DNA of 64,000 bases, taken from positions 4,021,001 to 4,085,000 of the forward strand of contig NZ_CP113783.1 in the NCBI RefSeq assembly GCF_029542205.1. Direction: 5' to 3'. Both the position numbers and the translations under genes were made by a program. The first letter of the stretch is position 1. Every line of letters starts with the position of its first letter. Shown here one piece after another: positions 28,226-41,909 of the stretch. The stretch comes from Pseudoxanthomonas sp. SE1 (GTDB taxonomy: Bacteria > Pseudomonadota > Gammaproteobacteria > Xanthomonadales > Xanthomonadaceae). The notes below the pieces were generated by a model that worked only from the letters and a program-made list of their open reading frames with translations, had not been told where the DNA came from and did not search any database.

Positions 28226-29623
28226 ATGAGCGCTGCCACGACACCCCGCCTGCCGCCCTGCGACCTCGCGATCATCGGGGGCGGTGCCGGTGGCGTACTG
28301 GCGGCGATGCAGGCACTGCGCCAGGCCACCTCGCCGCTGCGCATCGTGATGATCGAGCCTCGCGAGGTGCTGGCGCAGGGCGTCGCGTATGCGACGTCGC
28401 ATGGCGAGCACGTGTTGAATGTCCCCGCGGGCCGCATGAGCGCCTTCGACGACCGGCCCGCCGATTTCCTCGACCATGTCGTGGCCACCACGCCCGCCGG
28501 CGGTCCCGACCGCGAGACGCTGGCGCACGCCTTCATCGAACGTCGCCGTTACGGCGAGTACCTGCGCACGCGGCTGCAGGAAACCATCGCCGCCAGTCCC
28601 GCTTCGCTGCAGATCGTGCACGACAGCGTGCTTGAACTCGATGCGCGTGACGAGGGCGCGACGCTGTTGCTGGCCGAGCGTGGCGCGCTGGAGGCTGGGG
28701 GCGTGATCCTCGCCGTCGGCAATACGCCCAAACCGCTGCCGGCGCGTGGCGCGCCGCAGCTGCCGGACGGCCATTCGATCGCCGCGTGGGATTTCGATGC
28801 GGTGAAGGCGATCCCCGTGGATGCCGACCTCTGCATCGTCGGTTCCGGCCTGAGCATGGTGGACACCGTGCTCAGCCTCGCCGACAACGGCCACGCCGGC
28901 ACGGTCCACGTGCTGTCGCGGCACGCGCTGCTGCCGCTGCCGCATTGCCACGGACCGGCCGCGACCTACGACCCGGCCCCCCTGCAGACGATGGACCTGC
29001 GCGCACGCATGCGCTTCCTGCGTGCGGCAGCGAGGCAGGCGGTCGCCGACGGACTGCCGTGGCAGTCGGCCATGGAGCGCATCCGCCCGCACGGCCAGGC
29101 GCTGTGGCAATCGATGTCGATCGCCGACCAGCGCCGGTTCCTGCGCCACGTGGTGCGCCAGTGGGATGTGCACCGGCACCGCATCGCGCCGGAGGTGCAC
29201 GCCAGGTTGCAGGCCCTGCTCGATCGCGGCCAGTTGCGGCTGCATCGCGGCCGCCTGGACACGGTGATGGCCGAGGGACGCTGCCTGCGCGTGACCACGC
29301 ACACACGCGACGGCCGCACCGACGAGTTCGACGTCGACTACGTGGTCAATGCCACCGGCGTGGAGATGCGCGCACAGACCATGCGCAATCCACTGCTGCA
29401 CGATCTGCTGGGCAAGGGCCATGCGCAGGCGGGTCCGCACGGCATCGGCCTGAAGGCGGCACGCGACGGACGCATGGTGGATGCGGAGGGCAACCCGCAA
29501 CCGCGCGTGTTCATCCTCGGCAGCCTGCGCATCGGCTGCGTGTGGGAAAGCATCGCCATTCCCGAACTGCGCGGCCAGGCCGAGACCGCCGTGCGGGAAC
29601 TGTTCGCCGCCACGCCCGCCTGA
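28226..29623 (+). CDS. FAD/NAD(P)-binding oxidoreductase-like protein
   Basis: 465 residues from ATG 28226. The N-terminal dinucleotide motif is CDLAIIGGGAGGVLAAMQAL (about residues 12-31), followed by EHVLNVPAGRMSAFDDRPADFLDHV, a pattern of the FAD_NAD_binding (HcaD/YdhS-like) group. A second glycine motif is seen in DLCIVGSGLSMVDTVLSLADNG. The C-terminal VNATGVEMRAQ...GPHGIGLKAARDGRMVDAEG and FILGSLRIGCVWESIAIPELRGQA complete the family pattern. The substrate is unknown. Confidence 0.85.
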   Translation: MSAATTPRLPPCDLAIIGGGAGGVLAAMQALRQATSPLRIVMIEPREVLAQGVAYATSHGEHVLNVPAGRMSAFDDRPADFLDHVVATTPAGGPDRETLAHAFIERRRYGEYLRTRLQETIAASPASLQIVHDSVLELDARDEGATLLLAERGALEAGGVILAVGNTPKPLPARGAPQLPDGHSIAAWDFDAVKAIPVDADLCIVGSGLSMVDTVLSLADNGHAGTVHVLSRHALLPLPHCHGPAATYDPAPLQTMDLRARMRFLRAAARQAVADGLPWQSAMERIRPHGQALWQSMSIADQRRFLRHVVRQWDVHRHRIAPEVHARLQALLDRGQLRLHRGRLDTVMAEGRCLRVTTHTRDGRTDEFDVDYVVNATGVEMRAQTMRNPLLHDLLGKGHAQAGPHGIGLKAARDGRMVDAEGNPQPRVFILGSLRIGCVWESIAIPELRGQAETAVRELFAATPA

Positions 29624-29690
29624 CCGCCCGCCCGCCGCGGCACGCACCAGGCAGTACACTCGGCGACGGGTTGGGCGCGGGGAGAGGGCG

Positions 29691-32600
29691 TTGGTTTCCA
29701 GCTGGATCCTGCTGTTGGTGTCCGTCGGCTACGCCGCGCTGCTGTTCGGCGTGGCGTGGTGGGGCGACCGTCGCCCGATGTACCCCGACCGGCCCTGGCT
29801 GCGTCCGGTCGTCTACAGCCTGGCGCTGGCGGTGTACTGCTCGTCGTGGACGTTCTATGGCGCGGTCGGCAGCGCGGTGCGCAACGGCCTGGGCTACCTG
29901 CCCATCTACCTCGGCCCGGTCCTGCTGCTGCTGTTCGGCTGGCGCATCATCGAACGCCTGGCGCTGATCGCACGCAGCGAGAACACGGTCTCGATCGCCG
30001 ACTTCATCTCGTCCCGCTATGGCCGCTCGCGCCGGCTCGCCGCACTCGTCACGGTGATCGCCCTGATCGGCGTGGTGCCGTACCTGGCGCTGCAGTACAA
30101 GGCCGTCGCGATGAGCCTGAGCGTGCTCAGCGGCGAGGGTGGCGACAGTTCGCACGGCTTCTTCACGGATCCCGCCTTGTATGTCGCGCTGTTGATGGCG
30201 CTGTTCGCCGCGCTGTTCGGCACCCGCCAGGTGGACGCCACCGAACACCACCACGGCATGATGCTGGCGATCTCGCTGGAATCGGTGGTGAAGCTGGTCG
30301 CGATGATCGCGGTGGGCGTGTTCGCCTACCTGTGGCTGGGCGGGAACAACATCCACGTCGCGGATTCGGCGCGCACGCTGTTCGAGAATGCGCCTCCGGT
30401 CGGCTTCATCGCGCAGACACTGCTCGGGTTCCTCGCCATCGTGTGCCTGCCACGGCAATTCCACGTGGCGGTGGTGGAATGCAGCGACGTGGGCGATATC
30501 CGCAAGGCGCGCTGGCTGTTCGGCGGGTACCTGGTGCTGTTCTCGCTGATGGTGATTCCGGTTGCCGCCGCCGGCATCGCCCTGTTCGGCGGCACCAATG
30601 TGGCGGACGACAGCTATGTACTGGCGCTGCCGCTGGCGGAAGGCCGCACGGCGCTGGCGATCATCGCGTATGTCGGTGGCTTCTCCGCGGCGACCGGCAT
30701 GGTGATCGTGGCCAGCATCGCGCTGGCCACCATGGTGAGCAACGACCTGGTCATGCCGGTACTGCTGCGCCGCGGCTGGGCCGAGCACCATGCGGAAGCC
30801 GACGTGGCCTCGCGCGTGCTGTGGATCCGCCGCGTCGCGATCCTGCTGCTCGCACTGACGGCCTACTCCTACTACCGCAGCAGCAGCAATGACAGCACGC
30901 TGGCGTCGTACGGCCTGATGGCCTTCGCCGCGGTGGCGCAGTTCGCCCCGGGCCTCATCGGCGGCCTGTACTGGCGTGGCGCCAGCCGGCGCGGCGTGGA
31001 AGTGGGCATGGTACTGGGCTTCGCCACGTGGATCTACACGCTGCTGCTGCCCACGATGACCCAGGCCGGCTGGTTCGATCCGCACTGGCTGCATGCCGGT
31101 CCCTTCGGCATCACCTGGCTGCGGCCGCAGCAGCTGTTCGGCCTGAGCGGCTGGGACACGCTGACACACGGCAGTTTCTGGTCGCTGCTGGTCAACACTG
31201 GCGCGATGATGATCGTCTCGGCGCGCTCGCGCCCCGGTGTGGACGAACGGCTGCGCGCCGCGCCGTTCCTCGACCCCTACGCGCAACGCCCCGCGCTGGT
31301 GGCCGGCGAATGGCCCGGCAGCGTGCGCGTGGGCGATCTGCGCACGCTGGCGGAACGCGTGGTCGGCGAGCGCCATGCGCGGCGCGCGTTCGCCGAGCAG
31401 GCGCAGCTGCTGGAACGCGAACTGCAGCCGAATGTTCCCGCGGACCGCGTCTGGGTACAGTTCACCGAACGCCTGCTTGCGGCCGCCATCGGCGCCGCCT
31501 CCGCGCGCATCGTGCTGACCAGTGTGCTGCGCGGTTCGGGCATGGAGCTGGGCGAAGTGGTCGCCGTACTCGACCAGGCCGGCCAGGAGCTTCGCTTCAA
31601 CCGCGAGATCCTGTCCACCACACTGGAGAACATCAGCGCCGGCGTCAGCGTGGTCGATCCCGACATGCGGCTGGTGGCCTGGAACCGCCGCTACCAGCAG
31701 ATGTTCGGCTATCCCGACGGCATGCTCTACGTGGGCCGTCCGGTGGCCGACCTGATCCGCTACAACGCGGAACGTGGCGAACTGGGCGATGGCGACATCG
31801 ACGAACAGATCAACAAGCGCATCCGCTACATGCGCGCGGGTTCGCCGCACATCTTCGAGCGCGTGCGTGCCGATGGCCAGGTCATCGAGATGCGCGGGCA
31901 ACCGCTGCCCGGGGGTGGCTACGTCACCAGCTACAACGACATCACCGACTTCAAGCATGCCGAAGCACAGCTGCTGGAAACCAACGAGACGCTGGAACAG
32001 CGCGTAGCCGAACGCAGCCAGGCCGCCGAGCATGCGCAGCAGTCGCGCACGCGCTTCCTGGCGGCCATCAGCCACGACGTGCTGCAGCCACTGAACGCGG
32101 CACGCCTGTTCGTCAGCGCGCTGCGCGACAGCGAGCAGGGTGCGGATGCGCAGGCCCAGGAGCGCCAGCACCTTGCCGAGCGCGTGGACGCGTCGCTGCG
32201 CGCCGCCGAGGAACTGCTGGATGGCCTGCTGGATGTCTCCCGCCTGGATGCCGGCGGCCTGCAGACGCAGATCAGCGATTTCGATGCGGGCGAACTGTTG
32301 CGCGAACTCGCGGCACAGTACGCACCGGTCGCCGCGGGCCGCGGGATCAGGCTGCGCGTGCACGCGCGTCCCATCCCCGTGCGCAGCGACCGCCGCCTGT
32401 TGCGCCGCGTGCTGCAGAACTTCCTCGCCAACGCGCTGCGCTACACGCGCGACGGGCGCATCGTGATCGGCATGCGCGCACGGAGCGACAAGGTCGTGCT
32501 GCAGGTCTGGGATACCGGGCCCGGCATTCCCGAGAATCACATGCGGCAGATCTACGACGAGTTCCATCGCTACCAGCAACCGTTCGACTGGGGCGAGCGC

Positions 32601-33161
32601 GGCCTCGGCCTGGGCCTGTCTATCTGCCAGCGCATCTCCCGCCTCCTGCAGCACGAGCTGGATGCGCGCAGCAAGGTCGACCACGGCAGCATGTTCTCCA
32701 TCGTCGTGCCGCGCGGCAGCCCTACGAGCGAACGGCGCACCTCCTCGCGACGGACCGCGCTCGCAAGCGATTCGCTTGCAGGGCTGCGCGTGCTGTGCGT
32801 GGACAACGACCGCGAAATCATCGACGGCATGCAAGCCTTGCTGGGCCGCTGGCAGGTGGACGTGATCACCGCCACCACGGTGGACGAAGCGCTGGAGAAG
32901 ATCGCACAGGCACCCACCGTGATGCTGGTGGACTACCACCTGCACGACCGCCTCGACGGCCTTGCCACGCTCGACGCCCTGCGCGCCGCCAGCCCCGGCC
33001 CCATCGCCGGAGCCCTGCTCACCGCCGACGGCCGCGACGAACTGAAGCGCGAAGCCCGCGAACGCGGATACCGCCTGCTGACCAAGCCAGTGAAACCCGC
33101 CTCCCTACGCGCGTTCCTCGCCGCCCATCATGTTCCCGTCCCGTTGCCGGCTACGGAGTGA
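29691..33161 (+). CDS. SLC5-type transporter / hybrid sensor histidine kinase (CrbS-like)
   Basis: 1,156 residues from TTG 29691, the first in-frame start after GGGGAGAGGG; no ATG or GTG fits. Order: SSS/SLC5 transporter-like domain with ~13 helices (1-510); a cytoplasmic linker with STAC-like character (~512-632); PAS (~633-757); HisKA with His795 in AAISHDVLQPLNAARL; HATPase with N-box NFLANALRYT, DTGPGIP and GLGLGLSI (~903-1010); and a receiver with Asp1081 in VMLVDYHLHD. This is the layout of CrbS, which with CrbR controls acs in Vibrio and Pseudomonas. A LuxR-type regulator and acs lie 12.6-15 kb downstream, beyond the cassette array. CbrA is a relative, but a receiver at the C-terminus favours CrbS. 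Confidence 0.88.
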   Translation: MVSSWILLLVSVGYAALLFGVAWWGDRRPMYPDRPWLRPVVYSLALAVYCSSWTFYGAVGSAVRNGLGYLPIYLGPVLLLLFGWRIIERLALIARSENTVSIADFISSRYGRSRRLAALVTVIALIGVVPYLALQYKAVAMSLSVLSGEGGDSSHGFFTDPALYVALLMALFAALFGTRQVDATEHHHGMMLAISLESVVKLVAMIAVGVFAYLWLGGNNIHVADSARTLFENAPPVGFIAQTLLGFLAIVCLPRQFHVAVVECSDVGDIRKARWLFGGYLVLFSLMVIPVAAAGIALFGGTNVADDSYVLALPLAEGRTALAIIAYVGGFSAATGMVIVASIALATMVSNDLVMPVLLRRGWAEHHAEADVASRVLWIRRVAILLLALTAYSYYRSSSNDSTLASYGLMAFAAVAQFAPGLIGGLYWRGASRRGVEVGMVLGFATWIYTLLLPTMTQAGWFDPHWLHAGPFGITWLRPQQLFGLSGWDTLTHGSFWSLLVNTGAMMIVSARSRPGVDERLRAAPFLDPYAQRPALVAGEWPGSVRVGDLRTLAERVVGERHARRAFAEQAQLLERELQPNVPADRVWVQFTERLLAAAIGAASARIVLTSVLRGSGMELGEVVAVLDQAGQELRFNREILSTTLENISAGVSVVDPDMRLVAWNRRYQQMFGYPDGMLYVGRPVADLIRYNAERGELGDGDIDEQINKRIRYMRAGSPHIFERVRADGQVIEMRGQPLPGGGYVTSYNDITDFKHAEAQLLETNETLEQRVAERSQAAEHAQQSRTRFLAAISHDVLQPLNAARLFVSALRDSEQGADAQAQERQHLAERVDASLRAAEELLDGLLDVSRLDAGGLQTQISDFDAGELLRELAAQYAPVAAGRGIRLRVHARPIPVRSDRRLLRRVLQNFLANALRYTRDGRIVIGMRARSDKVVLQVWDTGPGIPENHMRQIYDEFHRYQQPFDWGERGLGLGLSICQRISRLLQHELDARSKVDHGSMFSIVVPRGSPTSERRTSSRRTALASDSLAGLRVLCVDNDREIIDGMQALLGRWQVDVITATTVDEALEKIAQAPTVMLVDYHLHDRLDGLATLDALRAASPGPIAGALLTADGRDELKREARERGYRLLTKPVKPASLRAFLAAHHVPVPLPATE

Positions 33162-33502
33162 AGATGTCCCGCGACCAATCACCCACCTTCCCGGCCTGAA
33201 GCCTCCCGCCCCCAGCGCCCCCTTCACGCAAAGCACTGCGTGACCCGAAAGGGCCCCCGCCTGCGATCAACATCACCGCCCCTCCACGCAAGAGGAACGC
33301 GCGCCAAACCCGTTACCGCCCCGCGTTCGCCCTGCTATCCGACCACCACCGTACTTGCCGCGAATATCACCAACGACAAACTCCCCATCCTCCAAGCGTC
33401 ATGCCTCGCAAGGCATTGAACGGAAAGGCCATCCCCGTGTTGACGCCCCATCCCTCCAGCTGAATACTCCGCGCTATCACCCCGAAATGGGGTCTACTAG
33501 GT
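33162..33502. other. Leader between the kinase gene and the first cassette
   Basis: About 340 bases with no credible gene and no integrase remnant that I can recognise on either strand. The last ~60 bases, before the first GTTAGGC core at 33503-33509, contain a small hairpin (CCCC-GAAAT-GGGG, 33480-33492) and ACTAGGTGTTAGGC, which could be a relic attI or the worn end of an attC. The R'' half that a full attC needs is not visible. Confidence 0.45.
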
Positions 33503-33514
33503 GTTAGGCCGCAC

Positions 33515-33808
33515 ATGAAAGCTCCAAGCAGACGGATGCAGGCAATAGTTGGCTGGACAATGATAGCTGCTGCGGTCTTCCTAGCTGGATTAGCAGCCTT
33601 CTGGGCCTGGCTTCTTCGAGATGGTCTTGGCCCAGATAGCATCTCCTCATCTGGTCTTGCAGCTGTCCACCATGCCATCTCGGGCGGTTGGCACTCGTTC
33701 CTTCCGGCCGCACTTGTAGCCATTGCTGGCTTGATGTTCATCCGCCGCGCACGCCGTGTGCGGCCTAACAACTCATTCAAGCCGAACCCGCTTCGCGGGT
33801 CGGCTTAA
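33515..33808 (+). CDS. Cassette 1: small membrane protein with attC-encoded tail
   Basis: 97 residues, not a recognised family. The start ATG 33515 lies 5 bases after the R' core of the preceding site. Two hydrophobic segments (about 10-34 and 62-74) suggest an inner-membrane protein. The frame has no stop before the recombination site, so its last ~14 residues (NNSFKPNPLRGSA) are encoded by attC itself and end at the TAA within GGCTTAA. Confidence 0.6.
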   Translation: MKAPSRRMQAIVGWTMIAAAVFLAGLAAFWAWLLRDGLGPDSISSSGLAAVHHAISGGWHSFLPAALVAIAGLMFIRRARRVRPNNSFKPNPLRGSA

Positions 33809-33822
33809 TTCAGGTGTTAGGC
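33763..33822 (+). repeat. attC site 1
   Basis: A 60-bp integron recombination site: R'' GCCTAAC, R' GTTAGGC. The central stem is AAGCCGA / TCGGCTT with an extrahelical A, then CCCGC-TTC-GCGGG. Closes cassette 1. This is the form that most other sites follow. Confidence 0.95.
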
Positions 33823-33826
33823 GTCA

Positions 33827-34519
33827 ATGAGCAAACGTGACTACATCCAAGAGATCATCGCAAAGCAGTCACGACTGCATCGCCGCGGAACGCGGATGGA
33901 TCTATTTACACGTAGAGTCCATCCGCTTGTGGAGGGGTTTCGTTCGATCAAATCGATGGATAAATCCGTAAGCTTCAGAAACGAATGGCTTAAATACGGC
34001 GCTATTGGATACATCGCGTGCGTGGAGGGCTACTTCCGTATCCTCATTGCGGATCTTATTAATTACGGAGATCCATTTCTGTCGAGGGTTCCTGAGCTTA
34101 AAGAGATCAAGTTCAACGCTGAAGCGGTGGTTGCGATTCATAAGAGAAAGGTCTCAATTGGTGAGTTTGTTGCGCACCTTCTTCCAATCAACGGGGTGTC
34201 CGACGTCAACTCTCATTTGTCCGCTCTAGCAGGAGATGACTTCCTGAGAATGTATCTAACTCAACCATGTAGCGGCCAGAACACGAAATCCGTCGGAGAG
34301 GTGTTTCCAAGGGAAATCGGAATGGTTGAGAAGCTTTTCAAGCTACGGCACCTATATGCGCACGAGCTGGCCACGAAAGAAAAAGTACCCGTTAAAGAGA
34401 TCGACAGCCTTGTAGGGTCTGCGGCAATGTTTGTCTGGTACACAGAGAAGGTTGCAATAAACAACTGGTTGACGCCTAACAATTCATTCAAGCCGAAGCC
34501 GCTTCGCGGCTCGGCTTAA
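33827..34519 (+). CDS. Cassette 2: HEPN-motif protein
   Basis: 230 residues, clearly lower in GC than the chromosome and rich in AT-ending codons. ATG 33827 lies 4 bases after the attC 1 core. The protein is soluble and mostly helical. Near residue 180 it has FKLRHLYAHELA, an R-x4-H motif in a helix, as in HEPN ribonucleases and related defence or toxin proteins. The helix before it (EVFPREIGMVEKLF) resembles the HEPN arrangement. The C-terminus is encoded by attC 2 (NNSFKPKPLRGSA). The HEPN assignment is by motif only. No antitoxin partner is present in the cassette. Confidence 0.65.
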   Translation: MSKRDYIQEIIAKQSRLHRRGTRMDLFTRRVHPLVEGFRSIKSMDKSVSFRNEWLKYGAIGYIACVEGYFRILIADLINYGDPFLSRVPELKEIKFNAEAVVAIHKRKVSIGEFVAHLLPINGVSDVNSHLSALAGDDFLRMYLTQPCSGQNTKSVGEVFPREIGMVEKLFKLRHLYAHELATKEKVPVKEIDSLVGSAAMFVWYTEKVAINNWLTPNNSFKPKPLRGSA

Positions 34520-34533
34520 CTCAGGCGTTAGGC
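34474..34533 (+). repeat. attC site 2
   Basis: A 60-bp site, R'' GCCTAAC, R' GTTAGGC. The inner stem is GCCGC-TTC-GCGGC instead of CCCGC-TTC-GCGGG, so the outermost pair is swapped from C-G to G-C with pairing kept. Confidence 0.95.
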
Positions 34534-34537
34534 CTTG

Positions 34538-34867
34538 ATGGAAACGTTCGTAGGCATCGTATTCCTGCTCTCCGCGCTCGCGGTGCTGCCTGCATTCGCG
34601 GCGTCCATCCATTGCTCTAGCCGCTTAAACAGTTACCTGCGGCAGAGGCACCCGAGCACTTGGGCCGAGGTCGCACCAGACTCACTCTCTGAGCCCTCCC
34701 TTTCCGCTCCGGTGACCAGATTCGTCACACAGCGTGCCTATCGAAAGATCGGCGACGCTCACCTCAATGCGCTGGGAGATAGCTGTTTTCGGCTACTCTA
34801 CGTTGCGGCCACAATCTTCTTGGCACTCGTGCTTTCCGGGCTGACTTATGGTGCACTCAAGGCCTAA
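34538..34867 (+). CDS. Cassette 3: small membrane protein, paralogue of cassette 10
   Basis: 109 residues from ATG 34538 (a TTG 3 bases earlier is an alternative). It has an N-terminal membrane segment (about 3-23), a soluble middle with HPSTWAEVAPDSLSEPS and SAPVTRFVTQRAYRKIGD, and a C-terminal membrane segment (about 86-105, IFLALVLSGLTYGALKA). It is about three-quarters identical to the cassette 10 protein by hand alignment. Its stop codon lies inside R'' of attC 3. Function unknown. Confidence 0.7.
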   Translation: METFVGIVFLLSALAVLPAFAASIHCSSRLNSYLRQRHPSTWAEVAPDSLSEPSLSAPVTRFVTQRAYRKIGDAHLNALGDSCFRLLYVAATIFLALVLSGLTYGALKA

Positions 34868-34921
34868 CAATTCATTCAAGCCGAACCCGCTTCGCGGGTC
34901 GGCTTAATTCAGGTGTTATAC
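34862..34921 (+). repeat. attC site 3
   Basis: A 60-bp site, R'' GCCTAAC, standard CCCGC-TTC-GCGGG stem, R' GTTATAC. The changed R' belongs to the 5' end of the following cassette, as expected for cassette insertion. Confidence 0.93.
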
Positions 34922-35267
34922 GGCAGGGCGGAATCAGATCCCTTTGGCATGGGCAAGGTCTGACATCACTGCGCGCCGCTTTCCGATTGTCGGTCGCTTC
35001 GCTCACCTGCTACAAAAGCGGCGCAACCGGCGCGCCACAAGCCGGGGCTTGCGGTGCTCTGGTCAGCCGCTTTTACCGGGCGCTTCCGCGGAGGGGTTTC
35101 AGGTAGCAGGCATGGCCAGGAGGGACGCTCCGCATTGCAGGCATCCGGACCGCTGCCGCATAACTAGTCGTTCAACCGGAACCCGCATCGGGGCCCGCGT
35201 CTTCGGCAGGGATCCGGCTATCATCGGCGTCGGAGCGGACCCATGGCGGGTCCGGTCAACTCAGGTG
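34916..35267 (+). other. Cassette 4: cassette without a credible gene
   Basis: About 352 bases between the attC 3 and attC 4 cores. Frames that cross it are interrupted or run into the next cassette without protein-like content. It is GC-richer than its neighbours and contains AAAAGCGGC...GCCGCTTTT (around 35018-35077), a potential stem. The cassette may carry a regulatory DNA or RNA element, or a decayed gene. Confidence 0.6.
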
Positions 35268-35273
35268 TTAGGC
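35158..35273 (+). repeat. attC site 4 (long, divergent)
   Basis: 116 bp. R'' GCATAAC at 35158-35164 and R' GTTAGGC at 35267-35273. The arms ACCGGAACCCGC and GCGGGTCCGGT pair with a single extrahelical A, but the variable loop between them is ~60 bases. Unlike the other sites it lacks the TTC loop, suggesting a different source for this cassette. Confidence 0.75.
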
Positions 35274-35313
35274 GGCACAGCAGGTCTAATGCGGTGTGCG
35301 CCGGGAGCTCCCT

Positions 35314-35982
35314 TTGATCAGGGCAATATTGTTCGACTTCGATGGCGTACTTACTACTGACAAGACCGGGTCGGTCAGCACACTGCGGTCGCTCAGCCAA
35401 CAGACCGGCCTAAGCGAAGACCTGCTGTGGGAAGCCTTCGCACCATTCAACGAGCACCTGTTAAGCGGCAGAACCACGCACGGGGCTGTATGGGCGAAGA
35501 TTTGTGATCGGCTCGGTCAAGATCTCGATCCCGCGATGTTGACGCGCGGGTTCGACAGCACGCCAATCCGGCGTGACATGCTCTGCTTCGCAGCTGGGCT
35601 CAGGCGACATTACAGCACCGGCATCATTACGGATAACAAGGCTGATCGCATGCAGCGCCTAACCGAGCTTCACTCGCTAGCTAGCATATTTAACATCATA
35701 ATCGTCTCAGCTGAGCACGGGTCAGGCAAGGAACAACCCAGCATCTTTGAGAGCGCCGTCGAGTCGCTCTGTGTGGCGCCGCATGAATGTGTATTCGTGG
35801 ATAACAGCCGCCGAAATCTAGTGGCGCCGGCCGCGCTTGGCATGCATACGTTGTACTTCAATGATGCCATCGACACTGCACAATCCTTGGCAGATGTGCT
35901 AAGTGAGCGTTACGGTATTGTCGCTCCTCGGGTGCCGCCTAACAATTCGTTCAAGCCGAACCCGCTTCGCGGGTCGGCTTAA
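35314..35982 (+). CDS. Cassette 5: HAD-superfamily hydrolase
   Basis: 222 residues from TTG 35314, chosen because GGGAG lies 6 bases before it and it places the first strand at the N-terminus; GTG 35296 is the alternative. Motifs: IRAILFDFDGVLT (nucleophile Asp and acid Asp), GIITDNKADR (motif II Thr), GSGKEQPSIF (motif III Lys) and CVFVDNSRRNLVAPAALGM (motif IV Asp). It resembles phosphoglycolate-phosphatase-like enzymes. Substrate unknown. The last 13 residues (NNSFKPNPLRGSA) come from attC 5. Confidence 0.82.
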   Translation: MIRAILFDFDGVLTTDKTGSVSTLRSLSQQTGLSEDLLWEAFAPFNEHLLSGRTTHGAVWAKICDRLGQDLDPAMLTRGFDSTPIRRDMLCFAAGLRRHYSTGIITDNKADRMQRLTELHSLASIFNIIIVSAEHGSGKEQPSIFESAVESLCVAPHECVFVDNSRRNLVAPAALGMHTLYFNDAIDTAQSLADVLSERYGIVAPRVPPNNSFKPNPLRGSA

Positions 35983-35996
35983 CTCAGGTGTTAGGC
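35937..35996 (+). repeat. attC site 5
   Basis: A 60-bp site, R'' GCCTAAC, R' GTTAGGC, standard stem. It differs from site 1 mainly by CGTTC for CATTC and ACTC for ATTC in the unpaired parts. Confidence 0.95.
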
Positions 35997-36008
35997 GGCA
36001 GAGCAGAC

Positions 36009-36365
36009 ATGATCGCAACTCTACTCATCACGATTCTTGCTGCTGGCATGTCGACCGAGCCTGCCACTGAGCAACCGGCTCTCCGATGCGACATTGGGCC
36101 GGCTGTTAAGCAGTTCGGAGGCAATGACTGGCTCGTCTACGGCTGCGCTGACGGCCATTCTGTAGTGGTCACTGCCGGCGCGCCCAATCCCGCTACTCCG
36201 TTCGTCTTCATCCTCACGCCGGACGGCAGCGGCGGGATTGAGCTGCACGGCGAAGGGACCGGGGCCGAGTCCGCTACCAAGCCTGCCTATGAAAGTCTCA
36301 GCAAGATGTCCAGTTCGGACCTGGCCGCGCTTTTTCATGAGGCTAGTCGGACCAATGAGCGGTAA
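36009..36365 (+). CDS. Cassette 6: small secreted protein, unknown function
   Basis: 118 residues from ATG 36009. A short signal-peptide-like N-terminus (MIATLLITILAAGMSTEPA) is followed by a globular part with LRCDIGPAVKQFGG, WLVYGCADGHSVVVTAG and FVFILTPDGSGGIELHGEG, including two cysteines that could form a disulfide. Its stop precedes attC 6 by 6 bases. No family recognised. Confidence 0.62.
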   Translation: MIATLLITILAAGMSTEPATEQPALRCDIGPAVKQFGGNDWLVYGCADGHSVVVTAGAPNPATPFVFILTPDGSGGIELHGEGTGAESATKPAYESLSKMSSSDLAALFHEASRTNER

Positions 36366-36371
36366 GCTGCC

Positions 36372-36431
36372 GCCTAACAATTCATTCAAGCCGAACCCGC
36401 TTCGCGGGTCGGCTTAATTCTGGTGTTAGGC
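36372..36431 (+). repeat. attC site 6
   Basis: A 60-bp site, R'' GCCTAAC, R' GTTAGGC, standard CCCGC-TTC-GCGGG stem. Confidence 0.95.
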
Positions 36432-36442
36432 CGCATTAGACA

Positions 36443-36811
36443 GTGCAACGCTATCCAAATCCCATACTTATAGTTATCGATGCTTACGCTGCCAGACTTT
36501 CCGCATGGCTGTTGGTCGCCACCGCGCTTGCCGCGGTCGTAGACATATTCCTAGATGTACACGGACGCCTCTTCTATGTTTTTCTAGCCCTTGCTGTGTT
36601 CGCTTCCATAGTGCATGTCGGATTCGCTTTGGCGCACAAATGTCCGGGATGCGGCAAGCACCCCACGATTCAAGGATTCGCTCCACCACATGCAAGCGCC
36701 GCGCACGACGGGGCTAGCGCGTGGGCTCGGGTCGTTCGCGACGTTATCCACAAGCGATCGTTCACTTGCTTCCACTGTGGCAGCAGCTTTGACGTATCTG
36801 ATGCTGCCTAA
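36443..36811 (+). CDS. Cassette 7: membrane protein with zinc-ribbon-like cysteines
   Basis: 122 residues from GTG 36443, the only start near the cassette front. Two membrane segments (about 19-37 and 42-62) are followed by a soluble part with CPGCG near residue 67 and CFHCG near residue 109. The two CxxC pairs ~40 residues apart suggest one zinc-binding site. Its stop TAA is inside R'' of attC 7. Function unknown. Confidence 0.62.
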   Translation: MQRYPNPILIVIDAYAARLSAWLLVATALAAVVDIFLDVHGRLFYVFLALAVFASIVHVGFALAHKCPGCGKHPTIQGFAPPHASAAHDGASAWARVVRDVIHKRSFTCFHCGSSFDVSDAA

Positions 36812-36865
36812 CAATTCATTCAAGCCGAACTTGCTTCGCAAGTCGGCTTAATTCCGGTGTTAGAG
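36806..36865 (+). repeat. attC site 7
   Basis: A 60-bp site, R'' GCCTAAC, R' GTTAGAG. The inner stem is CTTGC-TTC-GCAAG: relative to the other sites, two adjacent C-G pairs have become T-A pairs on both arms, so pairing is kept. Confidence 0.93.
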
Positions 36866-36870
36866 CCCAC

Positions 36871-37290
36871 ATGACACATCTCGCCCGCATCACCGAAAGA
36901 GTCAATCGCCTGGGTCATCCTGATGAGCCAAGCACCCCGCGGCCGTTACTGACTGTCGAGGAGTTCTTCGACGGTAACGCCGAAGTTGGAAGCATTGGAT
37001 GCAACCTTGACAGTGCTCCGGCGCCTGATGAGTTCTACTCACTCTTCCGCAATATCGCGCAGCGCCCGGATGTCCAAGACATCCGTGTTCAGATCACCGC
37101 ATTCGATGTTCCTGAGTGGCCATTTTCTGACACCGTCTACATCATGACCTCGGCCACACCCGAGGAGGTCGCGACATGGTTCCCCCAACACCTCAAACCG
37201 GACGAAACATGGACGGGATTCGTGGATCAGCCGTACGAGCCTTATCAGGTTCCCGACGGGGTGCAGCCCGTTGCTTGCTGGTGGGATTAG
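36871..37290 (+). CDS. Cassette 8: conserved-looking protein, unknown function
   Basis: 139 residues from ATG 36871, 5 bases after the attC 7 core. Soluble and acidic, with LTVEEFFDGN, GSIGCNL, VQDIRVQITAFDVPEWPFSDTVYIMTS and a C-terminal QPVACWWD. The dense motifs look like a maintained protein rather than random coding. I do not recognise a named family. Confidence 0.7.
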   Translation: MTHLARITERVNRLGHPDEPSTPRPLLTVEEFFDGNAEVGSIGCNLDSAPAPDEFYSLFRNIAQRPDVQDIRVQITAFDVPEWPFSDTVYIMTSATPEEVATWFPQHLKPDETWTGFVDQPYEPYQVPDGVQPVACWWD

Positions 37291-37294
37291 TGGG

Positions 37295-37354
37295 CTCTAA
37301 CAATTCATTCAAGCCGAACCCGCTTCGCGGGTCGGCTTAACTCTGGCGTTATAC
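37295..37354 (+). repeat. attC site 8
   Basis: A 60-bp site, R'' CTCTAAC (complementary to the GTTAGAG at the front of cassette 8), standard stem, R' GTTATAC. Confidence 0.93.
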
Positions 37355-37714
37355 GTGGGTGGGTGTGTTGGTGTTGTCGGCTTCGGTTGCCAGTCGATCG
37401 TGCGGCAGCCGCGGCTTCGGTGCTGATCGATTGTTGATACAAGGCAACAGGCGCGTCCTTCTGGCTTCGCTTCACTCGGCTTCGGGTACATCGCTCTCGC
37501 GCCGCACGGCTTCCGGATGACCTTCCGGCTTGCGGACCGGCGTCGCGGTCGGCTTCGGTCTTTACGGGCCCCACCCTGCTACGGGCTGGCGGCGAGTGAT
37601 TTCCCGCTCCCGGATGTTCCGACCCCGTTGCAGGCCGCTGGCTTCGGGCTTACCTTGGCGCATAACTATTCGTTCAAGCCGAACCCGCTTCGCGGGTCGG
37701 CTTAACTCAAGGTG
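37349..37714 (+). other. Cassette 9: non-coding cassette, homologue of cassette 14
   Basis: About 366 bases. The front (GTGGGTGGGTGTGTTGGTGT... at 37355) and the back half (about 37548-37666) are almost the same as in cassette 14, while the middle has diverged. The back half contains repeated GGCTTCGG units and CGGGCCCCACCCTGCTACGG. A 62-codon frame from ATG 37517 into attC 9 exists, but the aligned copy in cassette 14 has an in-frame TGA at its fourth codon. I therefore see no supported gene; a conserved RNA or promoter element is possible. Confidence 0.7.
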
Positions 37715-37720
37715 TTAGGC
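37660..37720 (+). repeat. attC site 9
   Basis: A 61-bp site, R'' GCATAAC, R' GTTAGGC, standard stem, with one extra A in the spacer before R'. Confidence 0.92.
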
Positions 37721-37724
37721 CTTG

Positions 37725-38054
37725 ATGGAAAAATTCATCGCAGCCCTATTCTTTCTTTCCGCAATTGCGGTCCTGCCTGTTTTCGCGGCGTCCGTCTATA
37801 GCTCCAACCGTCTTAACCGCTATCTGCAGCAGAAGCACCCAGACACTTGGCGCAGGATCGCGCCAGACTCACTTACGGAGCCGTCCGTTTCTGCTCCGGT
37901 TACTAGATTTGTCACTCAGCGCACCTATAGAGAGATCGGCGACACTCACCTCAACGCCCTCGGTGACCATTGCTTTCGGCTACTCTACGCTGCGGTAACG
38001 ATCTTCCTCGTTCTCGTGCTTTCGGGACTGACATATGGCGCACTCAAGGCCTAA
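37725..38054 (+). CDS. Cassette 10: small membrane protein, paralogue of cassette 3
   Basis: 109 residues from ATG 37725, placed exactly as in cassette 3 (R' core, CTTG, ATG). Same plan: N-terminal membrane segment with SAIAVLPVFAAS, a soluble middle with HPDTWRRIAPDSLTEPS and the identical SAPVTRFVTQR, and a C-terminal membrane segment ending VLVLSGLTYGALKA. The last 14 residues match cassette 3 exactly. The stop is inside attC 10. Function unknown. Confidence 0.7.
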   Translation: MEKFIAALFFLSAIAVLPVFAASVYSSNRLNRYLQQKHPDTWRRIAPDSLTEPSVSAPVTRFVTQRTYREIGDTHLNALGDHCFRLLYAAVTIFLVLVLSGLTYGALKA

Positions 38055-38108
38055 CAATTCATTCAAGCCGAACCCGCTTCGCGGGTCGGCTTAATTCCGG
38101 TGTTAGGC
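38049..38108 (+). repeat. attC site 10
   Basis: A 60-bp site, R'' GCCTAAC, R' GTTAGGC, standard stem. Confidence 0.95.
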
Positions 38109-38122
38109 CCCAGGAGATTTCT

Positions 38123-38344
38123 ATGTCGAGCTTCGGAAGTTGCTGTAACGACATGCAGGATGCGCTGACATCGCCGCCCGAAAAGCTACTTCGGGTTGAG
38201 GACAATGGCGTTCTTTACTTGGCGGTTGGATATGCCAATACAGACCAAGGTGTCGGCTGGTTCGATCAAGCTGTTCTGTTTTGCCCCTTCTGTGGCACGA
38301 CTCTCCAGTCTCACGCAGAGATACAGCACCGTGCTGGGGCCTAA
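38123..38344 (+). CDS. Cassette 11: small CxxC protein, unknown function
   Basis: 73 residues from ATG 38123, with AGGAGA at ideal spacing, one of the clearest ribosome sites in the array. Cys7-Cys8 (SSFGSCCND) near the N-terminus and CPFCG near residue 54 could bind one metal ion, as in short zinc ribbons. The middle is VLYLAVGYANTDQGVGWFDQAV. The stop is inside R'' of attC 11. No named family recognised. Confidence 0.72.
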   Translation: MSSFGSCCNDMQDALTSPPEKLLRVEDNGVLYLAVGYANTDQGVGWFDQAVLFCPFCGTTLQSHAEIQHRAGA

Positions 38345-38398
38345 CAATTCATTCAAGCCGAACCCGCTTCGCGGGTCGGCTTAATTCAGGCGTTAGGC
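38339..38398 (+). repeat. attC site 11
   Basis: A 60-bp site, R'' GCCTAAC, R' GTTAGGC, standard stem (spacer GGC in place of GGT before R'). Confidence 0.95.
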
Positions 38399-38403
38399 CG
38401 CTC

Positions 38404-38778
38404 ATGAGCATTGATGCGTTTGACAACATCTTGCTGGAGGACACATTCGTTCTCTCGTGGCACTACGCTTCAGACTCGCTCACATTCAGCGTTCTCGCGA
38501 GCCTCTTGCAAAGCCACCCAGAAGCAACGCCACCCGCGAGTGGTGACTGGGCTTGCTATCGCCCCGGCCTCATCCGGTTTTCTAGTGTTTCTTCTGTTAG
38601 CGGTCTGCTCCCACAAGCCGCTGTTCCACCCACTCATGACGCTGACGGCAGCCTGGATTACGGCTGCATTGACGAGCTTTCGCTTGTGCGACTAGGCGAG
38701 TACCGTATTGCTGGAGAGTTCGGGGTGGTCACGGTTGCCGCAATGGAGGTTTCACTTGTACTTAGCGCCGCGGCCTAA
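38404..38778 (+). CDS. Cassette 12: unknown soluble protein
   Basis: 124 residues from ATG 38404. Soluble, with likely beta strands (NILLEDTFVLSWHYASDSLTFSV, GEYRIAGEFGVVTVAAMEVSLVLS) and no membrane segment. It ends in R'' of attC 12. No family recognised. Confidence 0.62.
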   Translation: MSIDAFDNILLEDTFVLSWHYASDSLTFSVLASLLQSHPEATPPASGDWACYRPGLIRFSSVSSVSGLLPQAAVPPTHDADGSLDYGCIDELSLVRLGEYRIAGEFGVVTVAAMEVSLVLSAAA

Positions 38779-38832
38779 CAATTCATTCAAGCCGAACCCG
38801 CTTCGCGGGTCGGCTTAACTCAGGTGTTAGGC
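38773..38832 (+). repeat. attC site 12
   Basis: A 60-bp site, R'' GCCTAAC, R' GTTAGGC, standard stem. Confidence 0.95.
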
Positions 38833-38837
38833 CCCGT

Positions 38838-39092
38838 ATGAAAGATCTTCCCGATTTGGAGAACTCATTACGACAAGTGATCTCGGTCCAAGATGCACAC
38901 CGCGTCATGGAGCACTTCGTCAGCGCATATCTCGCGCGCGGCGACACGTCGGTATCGGACTTTCTGTTCTGCTACGCGGGCCTTACTGCTCCCGGCCAAA
39001 CAACCGATCCGGCTGCCATCCACGACTTCCTTGAGTCGACCAGGGCTGTAGCAGCACAATCCCCACCGGGCCCGTGCGGCACCGGGGCCTAA
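38838..39092 (+). CDS. Cassette 13: short soluble protein, unknown function
   Basis: 84 residues from ATG 38838, 5 bases after the attC 12 core. The N-terminal half is probably helical (DLENSLRQVISVQDAHRVMEHFVSAYLARG), the C-terminus is Pro/Gly-rich, and the stop lies in R''. No family recognised. Confidence 0.55.
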   Translation: MKDLPDLENSLRQVISVQDAHRVMEHFVSAYLARGDTSVSDFLFCYAGLTAPGQTTDPAAIHDFLESTRAVAAQSPPGPCGTGA

Positions 39093-39146
39093 CAAGTCAT
39101 TCAAGCCGAACCCGCTTCGCGGGTCGGCTTAATTCAGGTGTTATGC
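39087..39146 (+). repeat. attC site 13
   Basis: A 60-bp site, R'' GCCTAAC, R' GTTATGC, standard stem. Confidence 0.93.
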
Positions 39147-39506
39147 GTGGGTGGGTGTGTTGGTGTTGTCGGCTTCGGTGATGCCGCGACTTCAGCAGCG
39201 TCGCGGGCTTTGGCACTGATCGGCCGCTGACGCAGCTGAGTTGCTCACGTCTCCTGGCTTCGCTTCAATCGGCTTCGGATGCATTGCGTTCGCGCCGCTC
39301 GGGACAAGGATGACTTCGTGACTTTCGGCCCAGCGTCGCTGTCGGCTTCGGTCTTTACGGGCCCCACCCTGCTACGGGCTGGCGGCGAGTGATTTCCTGC
39401 TCCCGGATGTTCCGACCCCGTTGCAGGCCGCGTGCTTCGGGCTTACCTTGGCGCATAACAGTTCATTCAAGCCGAACCCGCTTCGCGGGTCGGCTTAATT
39501 CAGGTG
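39141..39506 (+). other. Cassette 14: non-coding cassette, homologue of cassette 9
   Basis: About 366 bases, the same length class as cassette 9. The first ~35 bases and the last ~120 bases before attC are nearly identical between the two, and the middle differs. The only frame matching cassette 9 is broken by TGA after ATGACTTCG (39311). No supported gene. Confidence 0.7.
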
Positions 39507-39512
39507 TTAGGT
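39453..39512 (+). repeat. attC site 14
   Basis: A 60-bp site, R'' GCATAAC, standard stem, R' GTTAGGT. Confidence 0.93.
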
Positions 39513-39519
39513 CTTTCCA

Positions 39520-39876
39520 ATGAATTTCGTGCGTAAAGGCGAGTATCTCTTGGTGACTCGAGAAACGGGAAATCAATGGAACTACCTAATGGTCCGCCTT
39601 GATGACGGACATGTTGGTCGACCAACGTGCATGCGTCTTGAGCGTCCCGACAGCTGTTCTAAGCGGCAATTGGCCGAGTCCGAGGTGGTGGACGCCGTTC
39701 TTGCTGGCGTCTCCGAGGCGAACGGGCGATGTGGTACAAGATATCGGGTATCGCATATCAGATATGTTGCCGATGACAGTCCTCCGGAAAGCATCTACAC
39801 CTATCTGGCGAGTTCGCTTGTTGAGCGCTTTCACAACGGAGGTGAGTTCCGCATTGGGTCCCCGCCGGAGACCTAA
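39520..39876 (+). CDS. Cassette 15: unknown soluble protein
   Basis: 118 residues from ATG 39520, 7 bases after the attC 14 core. Soluble, with three cysteines (CMRLERPDSCSKRQ, GRCGTRY) and likely beta structure at the N-terminus (GEYLLVTRETGNQWNYLMVRLDDGHVG). It ends at the TAA inside ACCTAAC of attC 15. No family recognised. Confidence 0.62.
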   Translation: MNFVRKGEYLLVTRETGNQWNYLMVRLDDGHVGRPTCMRLERPDSCSKRQLAESEVVDAVLAGVSEANGRCGTRYRVSHIRYVADDSPPESIYTYLASSLVERFHNGGEFRIGSPPET

Positions 39877-39930
39877 CAATTCATTCAAGCCGAACCCGCT
39901 TCGGGGGTCGGCTTAATTCTGGTGTTAGGA
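39871..39930 (+). repeat. attC site 15
   Basis: A 60-bp site, R'' ACCTAAC, R' GTTAGGA. The inner stem is CCCGC-TTC-GGGGG, with one uncompensated mismatch. Confidence 0.92.
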
Positions 39931-40344
39931 GGCTTGGAGAATGTCGTCGTCGCTGAAGCCGCTAAAGCGGTGGCGCACAACGTCTGCCACCAATTCGCCA
40001 GCACGCTCAATTTCTGGGCCGGCGATTACGGCATTAATCACTTCACGCGATCGGTCGTTGCTGCCGGCGGCTCCGTCGCCGTGGATCTCCTTGCTGGTAC
40101 GTCGCAGCCGCCCTTGGCTGGAGAAGGCGCCCTAGGTGTGCAGCAGCTGGCTTCTGCTCTTCCGGCCTTGTTGGCCAAGGAAGGCTTCGAGACTAACCCG
40201 CTATCCTCTGCCGTCGCCACCTACCGGGTTCGCGGACCGTTGCCTGATCCCGGCGGCAACGTAGCGTACGATTGCAGCGTAGAGTTCAGTACGGCCGGGG
40301 GGCGCTCGTACGTGGTTGAGCTGTCCGAGCTCAACGCTCCGTAG
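39922..40344 (+). CDS. Cassette 16: unknown protein, uncertain start
   Basis: Up to 140 residues. The frame is protein-like (EAAKAVAHNVCHQFASTLNFWAG, HFTRSVVAAGGSVAVDLLAG, NVAYDCSVEFSTAGGRSYVVELSEL) but the start is unclear: GTG 39922 lies within attC 15, TTG 39934 is only one base from AGGAGG, and GTG 39970 lacks a ribosome site. The well-placed ATG 39941, 8 bases after AGGAGG, opens another frame of 64 codons with poor composition. A small frameshift near the front is possible. Family not recognised. Confidence 0.5.
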   Translation: MLGGLENVVVAEAAKAVAHNVCHQFASTLNFWAGDYGINHFTRSVVAAGGSVAVDLLAGTSQPPLAGEGALGVQQLASALPALLAKEGFETNPLSSAVATYRVRGPLPDPGGNVAYDCSVEFSTAGGRSYVVELSELNAP

Positions 40345-40354
40345 CCGCCCGGTG

Positions 40355-40391
40355 AATTAACACCCCAAGTGCAACACCCCTGGTGTTAGGT
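40355..40391 (+). repeat. attC site 16 (degenerate, short)
   Basis: AATTAACACC at 40355 pairs with GGTGTTAGGT ending at 40391, leaving about 17 bases between. The usual central stem is missing. The R' core GTTAGGT is intact. Confidence 0.6.
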
Positions 40392-40394
40392 GCC

Positions 40395-40847
40395 ATGAAA
40401 AAGTCTCCCCAATCATGGATAGAGCACACAGCCAGCTGGCGATCTGCGCCAATGGCCTATTGGGTTCATGTCCAAAGGGGAAAAGAGCCTTGGTACCGTG
40501 CAACGGAGTTCGACCCTCCCGCTCCAGAGGCGGACGGAAAGCTTGGTTATCCCGTGCTGTGCGTAGAGTCTTGCGGCATGACTTTTCGGTTCACTTCGCG
40601 AGAGCAGCTGGATATCTGTATCAAAACGCTATCAACCAAACCACTGCCTTCTTCCCGGCGCCTCGCCGCATTGCGTGGCGGTGCCGGGCCAAACGGGCAC
40701 TGGCTCAGCCGTCTGCCTGCCAGCGTCAAATCGCCCAAAGGTCGGCAGCAAGCCATCGCAGATTTAAGCGCGGTGGCGCACGGGCTGGCGCCTGACAGTT
40801 CATTCAAGCCGAACCCGCTTCGCGCTTCGGCTCATCGGAAGACATAA
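40395..40847 (+). CDS. Cassette 17: unknown protein with attC-encoded tail
   Basis: 150 residues from ATG 40395. Soluble and basic at the C-terminus. Notable stretches: WRSAPMAYWVHVQRGKEPWYRATEF, GYPVLCVESCGMTFRFTSREQLDICIKTLS and HWLSRLPASVKSPKGRQ. The frame runs through the altered attC 17, giving the tail DSSFKPNPLRASAHRKT. No family recognised. Confidence 0.65.
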   Translation: MKKSPQSWIEHTASWRSAPMAYWVHVQRGKEPWYRATEFDPPAPEADGKLGYPVLCVESCGMTFRFTSREQLDICIKTLSTKPLPSSRRLAALRGGAGPNGHWLSRLPASVKSPKGRQQAIADLSAVAHGLAPDSSFKPNPLRASAHRKT

Positions 40848-40856
40848 GCGTCAGAC
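40790..40856 (+). repeat. attC site 17 (degenerate)
   Basis: 67 bp, R'' GCCTGAC, R' GTCAGAC. The left arm is as in the standard sites (AAGCCGAACCCGC), but the right arm has become GCGCTTCGGCTC and pairs poorly. The GTT of the core has become GTC. Confidence 0.75.
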
Positions 40857-40879
40857 CGCACAGCCAGGGGGTCGCAAAC

Positions 40880-41344
40880 TTGAGCAAATGGAACTCCGCT
40901 GCCGAGTGGCAGCAACTGTGTGATGGCTCCGCTTGTCCCATCTGCGTTCGCGGCCAGCCTCTCGACATCATCGTCGAGTTGCATGCGTCATGGCTCACCA
41001 TGCCGGAACGCGCACCCATGGTCGGGTATGTCTGCCTTGTCTCCCGCGTGCATGCTGTTGATCTGCACAACCTCACCCTTACTCAATCAGCTGCATTCAT
41101 GCAGGACGCACATCGCGTCTCATCTGCCCTGTCTGCTGTCACAGGTTCCGTCAAGCTCAACTACGAGATTCATGGCAACACCCTGCCTCACCTGCACATG
41201 CACTTTTTCCCGCGGTACGCGGGCGATCCATTCGAAGGACGCGCCATTGAACCATCTCGTATCGCCCAGCCAGTCTATGAGCGCGGGCAGTTTGCTGCGC
41301 TCAAGAAGGAGCTGGTTCAAGCGTTGGGCGCGGTTTCGGCCTGA
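40880..41344 (+). CDS. Cassette 18: HIT-family hydrolase
   Basis: 154 residues from TTG 40880 (AGGGGG upstream). The histidine triad is HLHMHFFPRY near residue 108, preceded by LNYEIHGNTLPH. CPIC in the first third is a common HIT zinc-site pair. HIT proteins hydrolyse or transfer nucleotides such as dinucleoside polyphosphates. The stop is in R'' of attC 18. It is one of two HIT proteins in a row, with only modest similarity between them. Confidence 0.85.
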   Translation: MSKWNSAAEWQQLCDGSACPICVRGQPLDIIVELHASWLTMPERAPMVGYVCLVSRVHAVDLHNLTLTQSAAFMQDAHRVSSALSAVTGSVKLNYEIHGNTLPHLHMHFFPRYAGDPFEGRAIEPSRIAQPVYERGQFAALKKELVQALGAVSA

Positions 41345-41365
41345 CAGTTCATTCAAGCGTCAGGC
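41339..41365 (+). repeat. attC site 18 (truncated)
   Basis: GCCTGAC and GTCAGGC, perfectly complementary, with only AGTTCATTCAAGC between them. The central stem has been lost. Last recognisable site of the array. Confidence 0.7.
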
Positions 41366-41399
41366 CATTCGGCACAGACCCGTCTGATGGGAGAGGCAG

Positions 41400-41909
41400 A
41401 TGATCGAACTTCCCTTGAGGGACCCATGCGACCTCTGCGTGGCCGCTCGCGAGGAACGATGGAAGATCGTGGACGAGAGCGAACATACCTTGACCGTGAT
41501 CAATCCGTGGCAATTCGAAGTTGGCCAGTGCTGCGTTATCACACGCCGCCATGTCGCAACGCTGCTCGATCTTTCCGACCGGGAATGCGAGGCCGTCATG
41601 ATCTCGGCCAAGCGAGTCGCAGAGTCACTCGTCAAGACGTATCGACCGCTCGGAATCCTGACGTTCCAGAACAACGGGGTCTTCAGCGGGCAGGAAACAC
41701 CGCACTTCCATTTCCATGTCGTCCCCCGACAGAAGGGCAGCGATTGGGGGGTGGGTCCACCCCAACTCGCCACCTTCGATGGCGCCGGACGAGCAAGGGG
41801 CAGCTCACACGATCCAGGCGGAGATGCACAGCGCCGTGAGCGGGTGCGGGCTTCCGCCAAGCAGCTTGCCGAGACCGTGGAGCTGATCCGCTCGAATCTT
41901 CCGCAATAA
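41400..41909 (+). CDS. HIT-family protein at the array end
   Basis: 169 residues from ATG 41400 with GAGAGG upstream. The HIT motif is HFHFHVVPR near residue 102, preceded by LTFQNNGVFSGQETP. CDLC (residues 10-13) is again an N-terminal zinc pair. It may be cassette 19 or a chromosomal gene that flanks the array, since no attC follows it. Nucleotide hydrolase or transferase activity is inferred from the family. Confidence 0.85.
   Translation: MIELPLRDPCDLCVAAREERWKIVDESEHTLTVINPWQFEVGQCCVITRRHVATLLDLSDRECEAVMISAKRVAESLVKTYRPLGILTFQNNGVFSGQETPHFHFHVVPRQKGSDWGVGPPQLATFDGAGRARGSSHDPGGDAQRRERVRASAKQLAETVELIRSNLPQ

Follow-up and report, generated by a model that had tools for sequence, protein, structure and literature searches.

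Locus B is an integron cassette array in Pseudoxanthomonas sp. SE1, contained in a 64,000-nucleotide stretch of contig NZ_CP113783.1 (positions 4,021,001 to 4,085,000; hereafter the window). It begins downstream of a sensor histidine kinase gene and comprises short cassettes with attC recombination sites. CALINs (clusters of attC sites lacking integron integrases) are usually interpreted as degraded integrons or stray insertions, and the first-pass annotation of the window placed locus B among them. The attC array itself is confirmed. The label does not hold in its plain form: the array opens not with a bare attC half-site but with the attI and cassette promoter (Pc) found beside the integron integrase gene (intI) of the same genome, copied in full. 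Locus B is likely an integrase-less second Pc-attI platform whose cassette array is served in trans by the integrase (IntI) of the distant locus, here called locus A.

Promoter and attI at the left edge

29481..33161, + strand: NahK/ErcS-family hybrid sensor histidine kinase of 1226 aa (NCBIfam NF041832, 408 bits, cut-off 400); left neighbour and marker of the locus
33440..33468, + strand: Pc-like promoter TTGACG-17-AATACT, directed into the array (9/12 matches; shuffles predict 0.1 such sites)
33478..33506, + strand: attI copy (CACCCC-5-GGGGTCTACTAGGTGTTA) with its crossover G at 33503

The promoter is the only promoter-like site between 33162 and 33600 and is also found at locus A. The 48 bp leading up to the first crossover of locus B share 94% identity with the intI-side attI at G000:C1:2550469-2550516, where G000 is the genome of the window. 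The left edge from 33440 to 33506 is thus a copy of the locus A attI and Pc, while the flanks of the two loci are unrelated beyond about 100 bp.

Locus B combines features of two known classes. As in a complete integron, a predicted attI heads the array, recognized by homology to the intI-side attI, and a putative Pc reads into the cassettes, recognized by sequence match and kept in 11 to 14 of 14 orthologues (TTGACG within 80 nt at 14/14, AATACT at 11/14); intI does not adjoin the attI and lies 1.47 Mb away. As in a CALIN, at least two attC sites are clustered (16 scored by the model described below) and no integron integrase gene is nearby. CALINs are usually, though not by formal definition, read as attC sites without an attI platform, and here attI and Pc occupy 33440-33506; nor is this the attI-free junction expected of off-target insertion at an attG site.

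The integrase at locus A

The genome has 13 PF00589 matches, all outside the window, and no IntI match occurs in an 18-kb stretch around the array. The first-pass annotation was therefore right that the window holds no integrase and that none stands beside the array. The whole-genome search that it proposed, for intI and a matching attI, located both 1.47 Mb away and thereby revealed the platform. The integron integrase of locus A (G000:C1:2549347-2550384, - strand) has an open frame of complete length, 345 aa, belongs to the integron-integrase family (TIGR02249, 474 bits, cut-off 265), and is the sole match in the genome to the IntI query at E <= 1e-20. Beside it lie attI and a cassette array in which a script counted 44 attC sites. 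The genome is a single contig of 4.23 Mb, and both loci share one chromosome. Because locus B carries an attI and Pc copy and a complete-length intI lies 1.47 Mb off, it is best read as an integrase-less second platform rather than a mere attC cluster.

The same genome has a third, more divergent attI-like site at G000:C1:111290-111331 (L044), with scattered attC sites at 111776-123744.

Conservation of locus B and coupling to locus A

The C-terminal part of the kinase is present in 37 of 38 genomes of the genus, and the kinase locus was examined in 30 of these 37. An attI-like site lies downstream, about 0.1 to 1 kb from the kinase end, in 14 of the 30, which are 14 of the 15 genomes whose kinase C-terminus shows at least 87% identity. 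Thirteen of the 14 also have a complete-length IntI match; the other, G019, has a C-terminal remnant only. Ungapped pairwise identity among the 14 B sites reaches 0.80 over the final 24 nt, falls to 0.54 over the 24 nt before them, and is 0.29-0.38 further upstream. Since matching integrase-less platforms occupy the same spot in related species, one integrase probably serves several platforms.

The letters of the two attI sites are coupled within genomes. Over the last 48 columns, the mean A-B distance is 0.123 within genomes, against 0.225 for A-B, 0.223 for A-A, and 0.223 for B-B between genomes, and 0/20000 permutations gave a within-genome distance as low. In the core clade of 11 genomes, with three divergent genomes removed, 7/50000 permutations did so. 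Coupling is weak upstream of the core (297/20000). Among genomes with multiple attI sites, the 8-nt attI tails likewise agree within a genome, with 0.60 mismatches against 2.61 when shuffled (0/5000; within-genus shuffle also 0/5000).

Alongside their usual IntI, the genomes G035 and G037 (L107, L108) encode another, distant one (50-51% identity), accompanied by attC and a different attI-like site. In G014 (L112), neither locus carries an attI in the DNA seen.

Cassettes shared between the arrays

Cassette traffic was assessed on 463 cassettes that a script cut out of 32 stretches of array in 14 genomes. Pairs with at least 97% identity make up 20 of 5641 same-genome pairs from different arrays, all of them A/B, compared with 11 of 95188 different-genome pairs, an approximately 30-fold difference; without a large family of cassettes lacking an open reading frame (ORF), the counts are 17 and 11. 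Of the 13 genomes with both arrays sampled, 5 show this sharing, which involves 16 distinct B cassettes. The order of shared cassettes is not collinear between A and B in the genome of the window, and it differs between the arrays in G008 as well. First cassettes at B, sampled in 13 genomes, each fall in a different family, and of the 182 cassette families found at B only 12 recur there in a second genome or more.

Proposed mechanism and alternatives

The proposal that locus B is a platform served from locus A draws on observations made directly on the sequences: the homologous Pc-attI, its orthology across the clade, the A-B letter coupling, and the shared A/B cassettes. IntI from locus A would act in trans and excise cassettes from either array, the excised cassettes would dock at either attI, and cassette 1 of locus B would be expressed from its own Pc. 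The platform may descend from a duplicated complete integron, or from a duplicate of the intI 5′ end together with attI, after which the redundant intI would have been lost and the Pc-attI retained by use. Short-tract gene conversion or co-evolution with IntI would then keep A and B matched.

Several observations weigh against this proposal. Activity of IntI at B is inferred from sequence, and no recombination was observed. The two loci do not always accompany the integrase: G019 (L155/L156) keeps both attI sites and both arrays despite its C-terminal intI remnant, and G014 has intI and no B site. A search upstream of 15 satellites (attI sites without intI alongside), B included, turned up no intI remnant (E 0.17 or worse). 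Coupling weakens to 597/50000 when G020 and G027 are also removed from the core clade. With ties included, the own B is the nearest B for 5/14 A sites and the own A the nearest for 6/14 B sites; A-B coupling is therefore a trend and not an identity. Near-identical A/B cassettes are absent from 8 of the 13 genomes, several of which were sampled at contig ends only, and the script-made cuts contain errors; in the window these are one false split (cassette 12 at 38595) and one displaced boundary. In G037, the shared cassettes are partly adjacent, and cassette sharing could also stem from homologous recombination or array duplication.

This last point leads to the alternative that survives best, in which homologous recombination or gene conversion between the arrays explains both the shared cassettes and the attI similarity, and IntI plays a minor part at B. 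Concerted evolution itself requires conversion or selection, the letters common to A and B in G020 and G027 extend even into the promoter spacer, and the partial adjacency in G037 fits as well. We nevertheless consider this explanation unlikely, given that shared cassettes in G000 and G008 do not keep the same order and that the A and B flanks share nothing beyond the first 100 bp or so. A relic is slightly less probable still. Here, locus B would be an old integron copy without intI that is no longer used, with a fossil attI and a decaying array, as the lack of intI in cis, the degenerate sites at the right end, the arrays of G019, and the decaying copies elsewhere (including platforms with intI remnants only) might indicate. 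Such a fossil would not readily account for an attI and Pc conserved in 14 species next to a flank that is not, for B letters coupled to the A site, for identical cassettes in A and B, or for first cassettes that differ in 13/13 sampled. Off-target docking at a non-specific attG site, a known route for cassettes outside integrons (PMC12901181; PMC12444791), is highly improbable as the origin of a plain CALIN here, because the junction carries a full attI and promoter and is orthologous in 14 genomes.

Distribution in the Lysobacteraceae

Scanning the genomes of named species with a strict attI pattern identified 41 places in Pseudoxanthomonas, Luteimonas, Lysobacter, Dyella, Frateuria, Thermomonas, and metagenome-assembled genomes. 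Of these, 21 have an IntI match alongside (two partial) and 20 do not (one with only 0.7 kb of upstream DNA). A looser pattern matched 52 of 217 family genomes, and the reversed control pattern matched 0. Among the 22 genomes with at least two attI motifs, 19 have both a complete IntI match and one or more attI without intI. The other three are G144, with two complete integrons, G151, with truncated intI only, and G210, with no intI. Eight intI-less sites in other genomes (L203, L205, L207, L208, L212, L213, L215, L217) each have attC downstream. For L201 a single attC lies at a distance of 3.4 kb, and for L202 the stretch of DNA is too short. Three species also share an orthologous second satellite locus (C), with 86-89% identity over 2-4.7 kb of flank.

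Two other genera contain CACCGC-type sites, with two attI copies in 5/20 and 1/7 matching genomes. Here 28 of 33 sites retain intI or an intI remnant alongside, and clean satellites are therefore rarer than for the CCCC-GGGG type; this result speaks against a family-wide rule and in favor of a decay origin. In these genera, intI at attI sites ranges from complete through remnant to absent. In P. sangjuensis, the similarity of the attI copies to the intI-attI region extends over 198-374 bp, and about 50 intI codons survive in one copy. Such copies with decaying intI suggest how satellites arise; for locus B itself, decay is only a possible origin, since no remnant was found there.

A broader hypothesis is that the Lysobacteraceae integron is commonly distributed, with one trans-acting integrase, several fixed Pc-attI platforms whose attI sites evolve in concert, and many CALINs of the family being cryptic platforms. 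We consider the case for it evenly balanced. Under this hypothesis, cryptic platforms would have been missed because attI outside class 1 integrons was not searched for, and each cell would offer several promoter-proximal first slots at once.

Relation to known systems

A search of the open-access literature yielded one precedent, a Shewanella prophage whose integrase-less array is headed by the same attI as the complete integron of its genome (PMC9892861). The likeness to locus B lies in exactly this arrangement. The Shewanella example is a single prophage case, and the available sections of the report mention no CALIN promoter, cross-species orthology, or concerted evolution (PMC9892861). 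Locus B, unlike the prophage, is chromosomal, ancient within its clade, and recurrent in a bacterial family.

CALINs at conserved chromosomal loci are described in Xanthomonas (PMC12444791). They resemble locus B as integrase-less arrays at recurrent loci in the same family with intI elsewhere in the genome. Section 10 of that study, the part at hand, reports no search for attI copies at CALIN loci and contrasts conserved positions with attG insertion (PMC12444791). Sedentary chromosomal integrons are also similar in their homogeneous attC sites, attI, Pc-like promoter, and mostly unknown cassette genes, whereas locus B lacks intI in cis and presumably depends on a distant one. The Delta-attI-type cassettes of mobile integrons likewise place attI sequence away from intI; they carry a truncated attI in place of the cassette attC (PMC12901181), in contrast to the attI and Pc that head locus B at a fixed position.

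If such platforms are maintained, an integron is not one locus. One integrase could then supply several arrays and bring them to expression, and estimates of the number of expressed cassettes and of landing sites for new genes would change. Satellite platforms also offer a testable reason for integrase-less arrays at conserved loci in the Lysobacteraceae. Sites of attI outside class 1 are poorly described and are undetected by IntegronFinder, according to PMC9024848, and the natural attI series with matched integrases is a resource for studying their recognition.

attC sites and composition

The attC sites were scored across the genome with a covariance model trained on 14 sites of the window array, which fit their own model by construction; the model also detects arrays outside its training set. 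It places 16 sites on the + strand of the array in one orientation. Thirteen are about 60 bp long and one is 61 bp (37658-37720); the other two are a long-loop site (35162-35269) scoring 33.8 bits and a variant (40788-40847) scoring 39.5 bits. Weaker - strand matches fall on the same palindromes. Two further sites, one short and atypical (about 40355-40391) and one truncated (about 41339-41365), were recognized by eye only and share this orientation. Together with the 16 scored sites, they bring the count to the 18 originally reported. The sites at 40788 and 41339 have the core GTCA and not GTTA, and the right end of the array uses GTCA cores. The genome-wide list of attC sites may be incomplete because only 150 of 3050 first-look candidates were scored. 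Two further small attC clusters occur in this genome at 3748249-3749522 and 3913960-3914722.

Typical attC sites fold far better than shuffled sequences, and the atypical ones do not. With the bottom strand folded as DNA against 200 shuffles, two typical sites gave z = -6.8 and -6.3 (0/200 shuffles equally stable) and the 61-bp site gave z = -4.1. The long-loop (z = -1.5), variant (z = -0.8), and short (z = -1.0) sites are not clearly more stable than shuffles, and the truncated site gave z = +0.5 with the folded stretch shifted by about 4 nt.

The GC fraction of 33503-41368 is 0.573, below the 10-kb flanks on the left (0.687) and right (0.664), as the first-pass annotation had noted. An Rfam scan of the window found nothing above the gathering score, with two sub-threshold matches (E about 8) taken as chance, and no tRNA or tmRNA was found in the window.

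Cassettes of locus B

33503..33822, + strand: cassette 1, 97-aa ORF (33515-33808), attC 33761-33822; cassette A_33 of G037, a different species, is 99.2% identical over 262 nt
33823..34533, + strand: cassette 2, 230-aa ORF without a Pfam or NCBIfam family, attC 34472-34533
34527..34921, + strand: cassette 3, 109-aa ORF, attC 34860-34921; 77% nucleotide identity with cassette 10
34915..35273, + strand: cassette 4, apparently ORF-less (34915-35160), long-loop attC 35162-35269; 100% over 233 nt to A_23 and A_24 of the intI-side array
35296..35996, + strand: cassette 5, HAD-type hydrolase (PF00702, 48.3 bits, cut-off 26.4), attC 35935-35996
35990..36431, + strand: cassette 6, 118-aa ORF (36009-36365), attC 36370-36431
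36425..36865, + strand: cassette 7, 122-aa ORF, attC 36804-36865
36859..37354, + strand: cassette 8, 139-aa ORF, attC 37293-37354
37348..37720, + strand: cassette 9, ORF-less, of a 22-member family, attC 37658-37720; 99% to A_7 and A_36
37714..38108, + strand: cassette 10, 109-aa ORF, attC 38047-38108
38102..38398, + strand: cassette 11, 73-aa ORF, attC 38337-38398
38392..38832, + strand: cassette 12, attC 38771-38832, a covariance-model site
38826..39146, + strand: cassette 13, 84-aa ORF (38838-39092), attC 39085-39146; 100% over 256 nt to A_2
39140..39512, + strand: cassette 14, ORF-less, same 22-member family as cassette 9, attC 39451-39512
39506..39930, + strand: cassette 15, 118-aa ORF, attC 39869-39930
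39924..40391, + strand: cassette 16, 140-aa ORF, short atypical end site at about 40355-40391 (by eye, fold z = -1.0)
40383..40847, + strand: cassette 17, 154-aa ORF, variant attC 40788-40847 (39.5 bits, fold z = -0.8)
40880..41365, + strand: HIT-domain gene (40880-41344; PF01230, 31.1 bits, cut-off 21.5), then the truncated attC at about 41339-41365

Both bounds originally given for the array, 33503 and 41909, require adjustment. On the left, 33503 marks the attI crossover, and the promoter (33440) opens the element. On the right, a second HIT-domain gene (41400-41909) lies beyond the last, truncated attC. Cassette 4 also has a 98% identical counterpart in P. mexicana (G001), where it is the first cassette.

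Pfam was searched with 16 array ORFs of the window, the ORF used for cassette 12 extending upstream of its cassette. The HAD-type hydrolase and the two HIT genes scored above cut-off (3/16), in keeping with the earlier remark that most cassette products match no nameable family. Among 7 array ORFs searched against NCBIfam, the HAD-type gene alone exceeded any cut-off, and PADLOC assigned no family to the 10 array ORFs submitted.

The family of cassettes 9 and 14 is the biggest among the 463 cassettes. Its members are about 300 bp long with repeated GGCTTCGG words and no consistent reading frame. A structured RNA was considered but gained no support, as RNAalifold on 18 of the 22 members did not rise above column shuffles (z = +0.68 on the + strand, +0.35 on the - strand). 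The family occurs in arrays of G000, G001, G008, G022, G027, and G030.

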